The translations under genes were made by a program, and so were the position numbers. This document shows, piece by piece, positions 36,878 to 45,119 of a DNA stretch of 64,000 nucleotides (the first letter of the stretch is position 1; every line of letters starts with the position of its first letter). The stretch covers positions 1-64,000 of the forward strand of contig NZ_VUNR01000007.1 of the NCBI RefSeq assembly GCF_009695585.1, written 5' to 3'. The notes beneath the pieces were generated by a model, which did no database searches, was not told the DNA's origin, and was given only the letters and a program-made list of their open reading frames with translations. This DNA comes from Anaerovibrio slackiae (GTDB taxonomy: Bacteria; Bacillota; Negativicutes; Selenomonadales; Selenomonadaceae).

Positions 36878-36903
36878 TGTGAGTGTTTTCAGGGAGGTAC
36901 ATT

Positions 36904-39066
36904 ATGCCCACAAATGTAAATTCAGCGGTAGGTCCTTCTATACAGCCCGCAGGCAGGACTGCGGAAACCAAAACCGACCGCATAGCCATAAACAAGGATG
37001 GTAGTTCCAGCTCGGCATTTGCCAAGCAGACGGATGTCAAGTTTACCACTTCCGTGGACAATATGTCTGCCGTGCTGGATAAGATTGCCAACAGCCGTCT
37101 GGGGACGGAGGCTGTCCTGCCCAAGCAGCTGCAGGAGATGATAAACAATGTGGTGCGCAACGCCTTTTCTCTGGAAAACTCACTGGGCGAAGGGCTGGGC
37201 AGTGCCATGGCAAGCGAGCGGTATTCTGCGGAGCAGCTGACTATCCTGGGGCGGATTTTCCAGCAGCTGGGCAATATGGCGGAGGCTAATGCTGTTTCTG
37301 CCAGCCAGCTGACCGGCGGCCAGGCTGGCGGCAGTGTAATGGCAGGTGAGCTGACGGATGTGCTGCAGCTGATGATGGCAAATATAAAAAATATTATCGG
37401 GGAGAGTGCCCTGTCAGGCAATACAGGCGATTTGGAGCTGGTACAGCTGAACAAGCTGGCCTTTCAGCTTTTGAACAGCGGCAATGCCGAGGGCCTGCCT
37501 GAGGATTTGGCACGCCTTTTGCAGCAGCTGTCCGGGCAGCTGGCATCTTTCGGGCAGGCTGGTGCAGCCTCCGGACAGGGGAATGGGGACACGGGCATAA
37601 TGAAGCAGCTGATTGATGTGCTGTTCCCCAAGCCTCTGTCCGGCAATGCAGCAGATACGGCAGCAGGCGGTCCGGTAGCAGGGAATACGGCACCAGGCGG
37701 TCCGGCAGCAGGGAATACGGCACCAGGCGGTGCATCGGCAGGCAGTATGGCTGGTAGCAACGTTCCACAGGGAAATGCCGCAGGCGGCAGCGTTATGGCT
37801 GGCAGTGGCAATGCCGGTGCTGCTGGTGGAGCTTCCGGCCAGGTTGCCGGAGAAAATCAGCCGTTGCAGCAAAATGGCCAGGGGGCTAATACCGCCCCAG
37901 GTGTGTCGCAAAATAGTGCAGCCTTCGGAGGTCAGGGCACGTTAGCGGCAAATACAGCCCAGGGGCAGGCGCAGACGGCTGGGAATAACGCTCAGTTGGC
38001 ACAGCAGAATCCTGCCAGCCCGGGGGGGCAGGCAGCAGCAAATGCAGCCCAGGGGCAGCCGGTTGCCAATGCAGCTACGGGTCAGACGGCCGGGAATAAT
38101 GCTTCTGAAATGCAGCAAAATGCAGCCGGCCGGGCTGGACAGGCCGCTGACAAGGCAGATAATTCTCAAGGCTCACAGCAGATTGCCAGGAATGGCAACG
38201 GGCAGAGTTTTGCCGGCGCCCACAGCAGGGCAGCGGAGCTGGAAAACAATCCCCTTTTTCGGCAAATTTTCAGCAGGTACGGCTATACTCAGGAGACAGG
38301 TGTGGTGAAAAATCCTGTCCAGCAGGCACAGCAGTCCCAGCCCCAGCTTGCCAACAACCAGCAGACGGTGGCAGCCTTCAAGGACATGGCACAGCTGTTG
38401 CTGAAGGACAGCAGCCTGACGGTGAAGGATGCACAGCTTTTGCAGGATTTTGTCAATGGCAGCCAGGAGGCGTTGAGCCAGCAGGATGCCAAGCAGCTGA
38501 ACCTGCTTCTCAGGATGGTGCAGGGCAACATTCCTGCCGCCATCCAGCAGGCAGGGCAGCAGCAGGGCATGGAAGGCCTGCCGAAGCTGTGGGCATTTTT
38601 GCAGCTGGCAGAGCTGGGGACATTGAAAAATATCAAGGCAAGGGATTTGAAGAATGCCAGCAAGGAAATCAAGACCATGCTTTCCTCCATGAAGGGGGCA
38701 GTGAGCAGCGAGGGCAGCTACAAGGCAGACGGGCAGAAGTCCATCAGCTTTGTGATGCCTCTGTACATAGGCGAGAATGAGCAGAGCTATCCGGCCTATG
38801 TCAACCTGTATCATGAGCCGCCCCATGAGGATGAGCGGGGCAGGCTGCGCAAGGACACCTGGTTCAGGGTTTGTGTCCTGACGGAGAATATCGGGGCAGT
38901 GGATATTGTTTGCCAGCTTTACGAGGGTAACAACCTCAATCTGCGTGTCAGGTTTTCAGACCAGGAGGCGGTGCAGGCATTCAGCGAGTACCTGCCGGAT
39001 ATCCGCAAGGCATTGTATGATACATCAGTTCATTTGAACGACTTGAAGGTAGGGACGGTGAATTAA
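36904..39066 (+). CDS. YlqG-like protein with FliK-type C-terminal domain
   Basis: 720 aa. The N-terminal 230 residues are helical. Residues about 240-430 are low-complexity, rich in Ala, Gly, Gln and Asn, with a 27-bp tandem repeat near 37666 coding GNTAPGGPAA-type units. The C-terminal domain (from about 610) has ISFVMPLYIGENEQSYPAYVN and VDIVCQLYEGNNLNLRVRF, as in FliK hook-length-control C-domains. Position and shape match B. subtilis ylqG. The next gene encodes a FlhB-type cytoplasmic domain, and FliK and FlhB act together in the flagellar export switch, so the pair may form a side version of that switch. Function unproven. Confidence 0.75.
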   Translation: MPTNVNSAVGPSIQPAGRTAETKTDRIAINKDGSSSSAFAKQTDVKFTTSVDNMSAVLDKIANSRLGTEAVLPKQLQEMINNVVRNAFSLENSLGEGLGSAMASERYSAEQLTILGRIFQQLGNMAEANAVSASQLTGGQAGGSVMAGELTDVLQLMMANIKNIIGESALSGNTGDLELVQLNKLAFQLLNSGNAEGLPEDLARLLQQLSGQLASFGQAGAASGQGNGDTGIMKQLIDVLFPKPLSGNAADTAAGGPVAGNTAPGGPAAGNTAPGGASAGSMAGSNVPQGNAAGGSVMAGSGNAGAAGGASGQVAGENQPLQQNGQGANTAPGVSQNSAAFGGQGTLAANTAQGQAQTAGNNAQLAQQNPASPGGQAAANAAQGQPVANAATGQTAGNNASEMQQNAAGRAGQAADKADNSQGSQQIARNGNGQSFAGAHSRAAELENNPLFRQIFSRYGYTQETGVVKNPVQQAQQSQPQLANNQQTVAAFKDMAQLLLKDSSLTVKDAQLLQDFVNGSQEALSQQDAKQLNLLLRMVQGNIPAAIQQAGQQQGMEGLPKLWAFLQLAELGTLKNIKARDLKNASKEIKTMLSSMKGAVSSEGSYKADGQKSISFVMPLYIGENEQSYPAYVNLYHEPPHEDERGRLRKDTWFRVCVLTENIGAVDIVCQLYEGNNLNLRVRFSDQEAVQAFSEYLPDIRKALYDTSVHLNDLKVGTVN

Positions 39067-40356: not shown

Positions 40357-40443
40357 GTTTTTGCTTAAAAAGATTCGATATATTTTTAATAAAAACAGTA
40401 TTTGTGAGCTGCTGCGGTATTTACAAGCCTTTGCAACAATGCT

Positions 40444-40488
40444 ATATTTGATTTGTAATGAAGTGCACGGAAATTACAAATCAGATAT
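40444..40488. promoter_or_regulatory. inverted repeat upstream of the PC4-like gene
   Basis: Arms of 16 bp (40444-40459 and 40473-40488; ATATTTGATTTGTAAT) with one mismatch and a 13-nt spacer. It has no T run. It may be an operator for the gene at 40551 or a weak terminator of ubiX. Confidence 0.45.
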
Positions 40489-40550
40489 GGGCTTAAATAC
40501 AAGTATATAAGTTTAAATGAAGTCAGGCAATGCATAGAGGGGGGCATGAA

Positions 40551-40949
40551 ATGGCATACGTTAGCTTTGTTGCGGAAGGTGGTCCTATTTATGATATCAA
40601 GAAAAGATTGGGGGTGATATCAAAATCGCGAAATGGCTGGACGAAGGAAATGAATCTGGTGGCATGGAATGATGGGGAGCCCAGGTATGAGCTGCGCTCA
40701 TGGTCACCTGACCACAGCCGTATGGGGAAGGGGATTTCCCTGAGCGTAGCGGAGATGGACTCCTTGAGAGAAATACTTGGTGATATCATGGAGAATATCC
40801 CTGAAGTGGTGGCTGAGCAGGCTCGGGAGGCGCAGGAAGCTAAGGCAACTGAGTCAACCGGGGCAACTAAGGCACCTAAGGCAGCTAAGAAAACCCGGGC
40901 TGCTAAGGCACCTAGGGCAACTAAGTTGCCTAAGGCACTGGGGGTATAA
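40551..40949 (+). CDS. PC4/YdbC-like ssDNA-binding protein with basic Ala-Lys tail
   Basis: 132 aa. Residues about 10-75 match the PC4/p15 coactivator fold as found in bacterial YdbC: YDIKKRLGVISKS, WTKEMNLVAWNDGEPRYELRSW and SLSVAEMDSLREIL. Bacterial YdbC proteins bind single-stranded DNA as dimers. After an acidic linker the last about 35 residues are built of APKAAKKTRAAKAPRATK-type units, like a histone H1 tail. The underlying DNA repeats GGCACCTAAG-like units. GAGGGGGG is the ribosome site. It is monocistronic. Confidence 0.8.
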   Translation: MAYVSFVAEGGPIYDIKKRLGVISKSRNGWTKEMNLVAWNDGEPRYELRSWSPDHSRMGKGISLSVAEMDSLREILGDIMENIPEVVAEQAREAQEAKATESTGATKAPKAAKKTRAAKAPRATKLPKALGV

Positions 40950-41141
40950 AATCAGCTTAATTTATTTCAGGCAGAGCATACCTGCAATGGTGATGCATGG
41001 TCGGGAAGCCTGAACAGGCAGAGTCGAAGATAAAGAATCTAAAATAAATGTCAGGCAGAATATCGGCTACAGCTGATAACTGGCAATAAGATATAACAGA
41101 GTGCGGAAAATCTCAATGCGATAGGAAATATAAGTGCAAAG

Positions 41142-41185
41142 AAATGACCGGTGCGTACAGAGGTATACGTTACCGGTCATTTTCT
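41142..41185. terminator. bidirectional terminator between the PC4-like gene and aroE
   Basis: AAATGACCGGT (41142-41152) pairs perfectly with ACCGGTCATTT (41172-41182). A and T runs on both sides suit convergent genes. Confidence 0.75.
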
Positions 41186-44033: not shown

Positions 44034-44948
44034 ATGGAAGTAAGAAGTGTGAAGGTCAGGGTTCCGGGAACCTCAGCCAACTGCGGGCCGGGCTTTGACT
44101 GCCTGGGCGTGGCATGTACTATTTATAATGAATTGGAGCTGACTCTCCTTGAGGAGGAGCGGCTGGACATAGAGATAACGGGCGATGGCGCTGAAAATAT
44201 CCCTGTGGACGAAAGGAACATCGTGTGGCGTTCCATTCAGAAGCTTTTGGAAAGGGCCGGCAAGGCGCAGGAGTACAAGGGGGCTATTATCAGGATGGAT
44301 AATGGCGTGCCCCTGTCCAGGGGATTGGGCAGCAGCGCTACAGCTATTGTAGGAGGCTTGAAGGCTGCTAATGAGTGCTTGGGCAATCCCTTTACCAATC
44401 GTGACCTTTTGCAGATGGCTACGGAGATTGAGGGGCACCCTGACAATGTGGCACCGGCTATCTTTGGCGGCTTTACCATCAGCATTGTCAGGAACGGCAA
44501 GCCGGAGTGCTTCTCCCTGATGCCGAAGCTTCCCCTGAAGCTGGTGGTGACGGTGCCGGATTTCTTCCTGCCTACCAAGGCGGCCAGGGCGGTGCTGCCG
44601 GCTGAGGTGCCTATGAAGGATGCCGTGTTCAACATCGGCAGGGCGGCAATGCTGACAGCGGCTCTCTGCAAGGGCAACAAGAGCTTTTTGCGCAGCGTCT
44701 TTGATGATGCCCTGCACCAGCCTTATCGCGCCAAGCTGATTCCCGGCATGTATGATGTGTTCAAGGCGGCCCGGGCGGCAGGTGCCCTGGGGGCCAGCAT
44801 GAGCGGTGCCGGTCCGTGCCTGATTGCCTTTACGGTGGAAAATGCCGATGCCGTAGGCATGGCAATGCGGGATGCCTTTGCGAAAAATAACGTCAAGTCC
44901 CAGTATCATGTTTTTGATATTGACGGCACAGGGGCAACTGTGATTTAG
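44034..44948 (+). CDS. thrB: homoserine kinase
   Basis: 304 aa GHMP kinase. It has VPGTSANCGPGFDCLGVA at the N-terminus, the ATP loop PLSRGLGSSATAIVGG and a C-terminal GAGPCLIAF. It phosphorylates homoserine for threonine synthesis. ATG 44034 has AGGAGG upstream. A thrC gene is not in view. A terminator follows at 44971. Confidence 0.96.
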   Translation: MEVRSVKVRVPGTSANCGPGFDCLGVACTIYNELELTLLEEERLDIEITGDGAENIPVDERNIVWRSIQKLLERAGKAQEYKGAIIRMDNGVPLSRGLGSSATAIVGGLKAANECLGNPFTNRDLLQMATEIEGHPDNVAPAIFGGFTISIVRNGKPECFSLMPKLPLKLVVTVPDFFLPTKAARAVLPAEVPMKDAVFNIGRAAMLTAALCKGNKSFLRSVFDDALHQPYRAKLIPGMYDVFKAARAAGALGASMSGAGPCLIAFTVENADAVGMAMRDAFAKNNVKSQYHVFDIDGTGATVI

Positions 44949-44970: not shown

Positions 44971-45016
44971 TTGGCTGATTTTATTGTATGCTGTATAATA
45001 AAGTCAGCCAATTTTT
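44971..45016 (+). terminator. terminator after thrB
   Basis: TTGGCTGA (44971-44978) pairs with TCAGCCAA (45004-45011), then TTTTT. Confidence 0.7.
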
Positions 45017-45119
45017 ATGTGCTGACAAATTGCTTTATGTGTGATGAATAATTTTGTGTGGTGATAAATAACTTTATGTGCTAATGAATAACTTTATGTG
45101 CTGATAAGCTATTTTGTGG
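45014..45119 (+). repeat. degenerate 20-bp tandem repeat before cca
   Basis: The motif TTTATGTG, with variants TTTGTGTG and TTTGTGG, recurs at 45014, 45034, 45053, 45073, 45093 and about 45113, a 19-20 bp period (two DNA turns). Between them GATGAATAA or GATAAATAA is repeated. It ends 43 bp before cca. Confidence 0.65.

Follow-up and report, generated by a model that had tools for sequence, protein, structure and literature searches.

The gene considered here lies within the window, that is, the whole 64,000-nucleotide stretch of DNA that was analysed, and occurs as a single copy in its own genome. It is located between a ubiX-like gene (PF02441) and a convergent aroE-like gene, with UPF0102 and FlhB-like genes upstream; both neighbours are presumed to be ubiX and aroE from their own sequences. 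Its product is a small protein of the PC4/YdbC family that carries an extended C-terminus (Table 1).

Table 1. Features of the PC4 gene and its flanking regions, by position in the window
Feature	Position	Strand	Basis
Promoter-like TTTACA-17-TATATT	40420..40448	+	10/12 matches; alignment
Perfect inverted repeat TGATTTGTAAT-N13-ATTACAAATCA, directly 3' of the -10	40449..40483	+	alignment, genome pattern search, fold z -5.7
Probable ribosome-binding site GAGGGGGG, 6 bases 5' of ATG 40551	40537..40544	+	read from sequence
CDS, PC4/YdbC-family protein with C-terminal basic tail	40551..40949	+	132 aa, ATG 40551, stop ends 40949
PC4/YdbC core (residues 14-81) with a fold predicted to bind ssDNA	40590..40793	+	phmmer, AlphaFold2, Foldseek
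Linker (residues 83-103), acidic/neutral; helix 85-102 predicted with low confidence	40797..40859	+	net charge -3; AlphaFold2
Tail-coding tandem array of a 9-bp unit, with higher-order periods of 18 and 36 bp	40840..40937	+	repeat search; excess over synonymous null
Basic AK-rich distal tail, residues 104-132, predicted coil	40860..40946	+	net +9; AlphaFold2
Probable terminator hairpin in the PC4-aroE intergenic region	41141..41183	+	-22.5 kcal/mol, z -4.5; conserved in L044

Alignment of the region revealed the same promoter-like motif upstream of two close syntenic genes, L044 and L004, as well as the core of the inverted repeat that follows it (TTTGTAAT-N13-ATTACAAA), which is perfect in the window and in L044 and has one mismatch in L004. 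This inverted repeat folds well as RNA and may represent a private operator or autoregulatory site, or else a 5'UTR hairpin. No other perfect copy of the palindrome core was detected in the genome, and the existence of a palindrome regulon was rejected, with three other sites carrying two mismatches and a control pattern giving four matches against eight strand-counted ones for the palindrome. On the other side of the gene, the intergenic hairpin is a probable shared terminator of the PC4 gene and aroE; it was absent from the list returned by a simple terminator scan. Repeats also occur upstream, in the ORF at 36883-39066, with 30-bp units at window positions 37655-37731 and 63-bp units in the relative (L044 287-583), so that this ORF appears to be a second gene of the region with a lineage-specific repeat expansion.

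The original prediction that this protein has a bacterial PC4/YdbC domain was borne out by profile and sequence searches. Residues 28-75 matched PF02229 (Pfam PC4) with an E-value of 1.8e-7 and 31 bits, for a cut-off of 25, and phmmer identified the L. lactis YdbC (PDB 2ltd/2ltt; DUF2128) as the nearest solved relative of the core (residues 14-81, E 2.5e-19). An AlphaFold2 model built from 20 aligned sequences gave block mean pLDDT values of 80-94 for residues 11-80, and its 11 best Foldseek matches in the PDB were all YdbC, SP_0782 or EF_3132 structures, several of them with ssDNA (E 4e-6 to 4e-3 and target TM 0.52-0.72 over these 11 top chains). With the profile cut-off passed and the fold of solved YdbC/SP_0782 proteins matched, the protein is a member of the PC4/YdbC family. 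Solved relatives such as YdbC are homodimers, and they include the ssDNA complexes 2ltt, 4g06, 5zkl and 5zkm; by homology, the protein would also bind ssDNA. Six aromatic or basic residues (W30, W39, R49, W51, R57, and K60) are invariant in the 20 aligned members and are candidates for the ssDNA-binding face. The whole core aligns with L. lactis YdbC, for which an ssDNA-bound structure exists, but the 80-residue chain of the latter leaves no room for a comparable tail. The alignment also places about eight extra residues near the N-terminus of the protein relative to its relatives.

Past the PC4/YdbC domain, the protein extends for about 50 residues (83-132, net charge +6) along which charge is polarised, from -1 in the core (residues 1-82) to -3 in the linker (83-103) and +9 in the distal tail (104-132; GATKAPKAAKKTRAAKAPRATKLPKALGV; pI 12). 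The resemblance to histone H1 that had been proposed for the lysine- and alanine-rich tail is thus limited to the distal 29 residues, since residues 83-103 are acidic. This distal part is made of a 3-residue unit, [A][T/P/A][K/R], with K or R at the third position in all eight units (ATK APK AAK KTR AAK APR ATK LPK) and a variable second position, a series of eight being too small for a test. Both parts of the extension were modelled with low scores: the predicted linker helix (85-102) has block mean pLDDT values of about 54-68, and the coil predicted for residues 103-132 has values of 52-59, suggesting that the distal tail is disordered.

The DNA encoding the tail had also been described as repetitive, and it does contain a genuine tandem array of a 9-bp unit, CTAAGGCAA, at 40840-40925, beyond synonymous expectation, the 36-bp higher-order period scoring 118. 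Self-identity of the array at lags of 9, 18, 27, and 36 bp was reached by none of 2000 synonymous redraws, using the codon usage of five window ORFs, and by none of 5000 codon permutations. Encoding this protein does not require so much self-similarity; duplication of DNA, and not selection on amino acids alone, therefore built the array. Genome-wide, the unit in its exact 24-bp form is found a single time. Allowing up to two mismatches gave 19 matches, three of which lie inside the array, while a backwards control pattern gave nine matches. A wider AK-rich trend in the genome was rejected after reading seven of the 16 matches outside the array (L221, L223, and L225-L229), which contained loose 9-bp pattern matches only and no PC4-like or H1-like tail. 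In frame 0, the array is AKA-like and in frame 2 it has stops; the frame +1 reading (LRQ/LRH) is also basic, and the basicity of the tail may therefore be an accident of the unit that was amplified.

The history of the tail was examined in other genomes of the genus. A full-length ubiX match was found in 15 of 16 genomes, and 11 of the 15, among them the genome that contains the window, have a PC4 gene next to it; the contig of G012 ends about 100 bases past ubiX, too soon to show whether a PC4 gene follows. Counted from one set position after the domain, the extension comprises 52 residues (net +5) in the window protein, 27 (net -4) in L236 from genome G008, nine (net 0) in L237 from genome G014, and a single residue in eight other syntenic genes. 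The proposal that the tail may vary in length thus holds between species, where both length and sequence differ. The basic tail is absent from the two closest syntenic homologues, L236 and L237 (core identities of 88% and 73-75%), and, counting these two, from every one of the ten further PC4 genes found at this locus in the genus. The eight more distant proteins (ca. 44-52% identity) fall outside the window clade in the tree, so that synteny is no proof of strict orthology for their genes. Even close species have 3' ends of this gene that cannot be aligned at the DNA level. Searches with the tail detected no relative in the 16 genus genomes at E <= 10, and no AK tail was found in 80 relative loci from genome contigs, among the 164 relatives found. 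The tail is a young, lineage-specific extension that arose by in-frame, slippage-like amplification of the 9-bp unit.

A frameshift origin, raised in the original prediction in combination with close homologues devoid of the tail, was ruled out: such homologues do exist, but domain and tail share one reading frame, and an AK tail is encoded in none of the frames of the 88% relative. An assembly or reading artefact, either a frameshift or a misassembled repeat, might still be suspected for a tail present in one genome only and encoded by repeats, which are prone to misassembly. The above reading-frame evidence, together with the 0% indels of the array and its periods that are all multiples of 3, makes this explanation barely credible.

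The main rival explanation regards the tail as a neutral by-product: the 3' end would drift freely, with stops lost and regained, and 9-bp slippage would have added a functionless basic stretch to a core performing ordinary YdbC work. This explanation is in agreement with extensions of 1, 9, 27 (acidic), and 52 (basic) residues that share no sequence and are encoded by unalignable DNA, with a tail that has no relatives in the 16 genus genomes at E <= 10, and with a basicity that the amplified unit yields in either open frame. Moreover, the repeats of the upstream ORF also differ between the same two species. However, K or R has been retained at the third position of every distal unit, and a basic tail is found on another branch of the tree (see below). 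We regard this neutral scenario as a distinct possibility, short of probable.

This other tail was identified in a wider census. A set of 336 loci, many of which were duplicate or unrelated, was reduced to 247 distinct closed PC4-domain ORFs in 246 loci, one open-ended match being dropped and identical ORFs collapsed; these were mostly from the same phylum, with a sampling weighted to the same class. A C-terminal suffix with a net charge of at least 5 was found in two of the 247 ORFs, namely the window gene (+9) and L288 (+7). In a smaller census of 171 ORFs, the window protein had the sole tail with net +3 or more; with the 247-ORF set, the whole-tail measure added just a 7-residue end in L333, and the suffix measure added L288. 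Found in genome G731, from another family of the same class, L288 (PF02229, 26.9 bits) has a PC4 domain followed by an A/E/K-rich linker and the basic distal tail. Its neighbourhood is unlike that of the window locus, the gene lying upstream of what we take to be a prfA-like gene. In a tree based on 73 columns, the window protein and L288 belong to separate, supported clades (98/93 and 99/99, respectively). Homology of the two tails was rejected, since direct comparison detected no similarity between them, and the 9-bp array was not evident on reading the L288 tail codons. As L288 differs in family, locus, branch, and tail sequence, two independent gains are likely; basic tails on PC4 proteins thus probably arose twice. 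Two further observations emerged from the census. PC4 proteins from family f3 of the class, to which L288 belongs (L277-L299, L335, and others), commonly have A/E/K-rich, probably helical C-terminal extensions of 16-45 residues, and two proteins (L334 and L026) seemingly contain two PC4-like units.

Several known proteins offer points of comparison. Human PC4 and yeast Sub1 belong to the same Pfam family, and the lysine-rich region of human PC4 precedes its PC4 domain. This region is bordered by acidic/serine stretches, whereas the basic region described here is C-terminal, shorter, and repeat-born. Eukaryotic PC4 is reported to be a dimer binding ssDNA through its PC4 domain, with solved bacterial relatives cited alongside (PMC9600219, PMC4350104); the human protein combines this ssDNA-binding domain with the lysine-rich region, phosphorylation reduces its binding to dsDNA, and the C-terminal region of ScSub1 is described as unique (PMC9600219). 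In Pseudomonas, the C-terminal KPAA domains of AlgP (AlgR3) and PhaF form a K/A/P-rich, disordered tandem-repeat tail like that of the window protein; the difference lies in a repeat of 154 aa and in the N-terminal domain that bears it, which is helical and unrelated. In vitro, DNA is bound by KPAA peptides of AlgP (PMC9239181). Chlamydia Hc1/Hc2 and Bordetella BpH1 are likewise lysine/alanine-rich and DNA-binding, the repeat length varying in Hc2 and BpH1; DNA binding by Hc1 is attributed to its lysine-rich C-terminus, and Hc2 is built of pentamer units in a repeat region of 72-144 aa, against 29 residues here (PMC2848022). The window tail has the K/A/P-rich, low-complexity C-terminal character of H1-like proteins, over 29 residues that fall far short of AlgP and Hc2, and the protein is not classed with AlgP, Hc1/Hc2, or BpH1 because its core belongs to another family. 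Hc1/Hc2 and BpH1 are not known to have a PC4 domain.

We are inclined, with modest confidence, to view the protein as an ssDNA-binding core to which a recently repeat-born basic tail adds weak contacts with duplex DNA or RNA. A promoter of its own would drive the gene, which sits between ubiX and aroE and whose 3' end has grown recently in this lineage as copies of the 9-bp unit were added in frame. In the product, a short linker, acidic and perhaps helical, would connect the core to a flexible, positive tail of some 29 residues, and dimerisation would place a pair of these tails beside the faces that bind ssDNA. Weak, sequence-independent contacts of the tails with nearby duplex DNA or RNA, of the kind reported or proposed for the basic segments of human PC4, AlgP, and Hc1, could then raise residence time at ss/ds junctions, at transcription bubbles, or on the nucleoid. 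A function of the tail is plausible, and we infer that the cell may draw some benefit from it. Several observations weigh against this view: 245 of the 247 PC4-domain ORFs lack a basic suffix of net 5 or more, the ten other syntenic genes lack the tail, the amplified unit may be basic by accident, the tail is short beside those of AlgP and Hc2, and the linker helix is modelled with low confidence.

The tail might also address a partner other than duplex DNA, such as RNA, polyphosphate granules, RNA polymerase, or another acidic protein. There are precedents: AlgP, with its comparable KPAA tail, is found at polyphosphate granules (PMC9239181) and Hc2 is described as a tighter RNA binder than Hc1 (PMC2848022). 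Yet the locus suggests no such partner and the AlgP and Hc2 tails are much longer, making this alternative quite improbable. As for the nucleoid protein originally envisaged, which would couple ssDNA binding to dsDNA condensation, the idea is drawn by analogy with the above systems; it is weakened by a tail that is short (29 basic residues), absent from the ten other syntenic genes, and present in one genome, and mildly helped by the second, probably independent, basic tail of L288. More speculatively, and in our opinion rather unlikely, bacterial PC4 proteins might repeatedly evolve an acidic helix and a disordered basic tail that bridge single-stranded and duplex nucleic acids, re-creating the eukaryotic lysine-rich region on the opposite side of the domain, the window gene being a case in progress through 9-bp expansion.

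Overall, this is a known protein family, PC4/YdbC, with a young tail. A literature search did not turn up a tail of this kind on any PC4 protein from bacteria, although a subscription paper may exist. If the tail works, it is a very recent natural experiment in which repeat expansion gives an ssDNA-binding protein an affinity for duplex DNA, and the tail-less sister protein (L044, 88% core identity) provides a ready natural control. Should the parallel basic tail in another family hold, it would point to repeated evolution of a PC4-plus-basic-tail design, found also in eukaryotic PC4; if the tail does nothing, it would illustrate the harmless origin of low-complexity tails.

A phage or plasmid origin of the gene was rejected: 21 phage and 29 plasmid records matched the protein, none spanning 80% of the query, and the matches listed cover the core only. 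A scan of viral contigs with the whole protein detected no relative. Elsewhere in the same genome, one of the two HU genes (L184, C6:6321-6590) ends in a short basic tail, KPAKGKKKAKSKK, that is missing from the other (L183). Finally, a 20/39-bp tandem repeat, apparently intergenic, occupies window positions 45013-45107, 3' of an ORF ending at 44948 that is presumably thrB-like.
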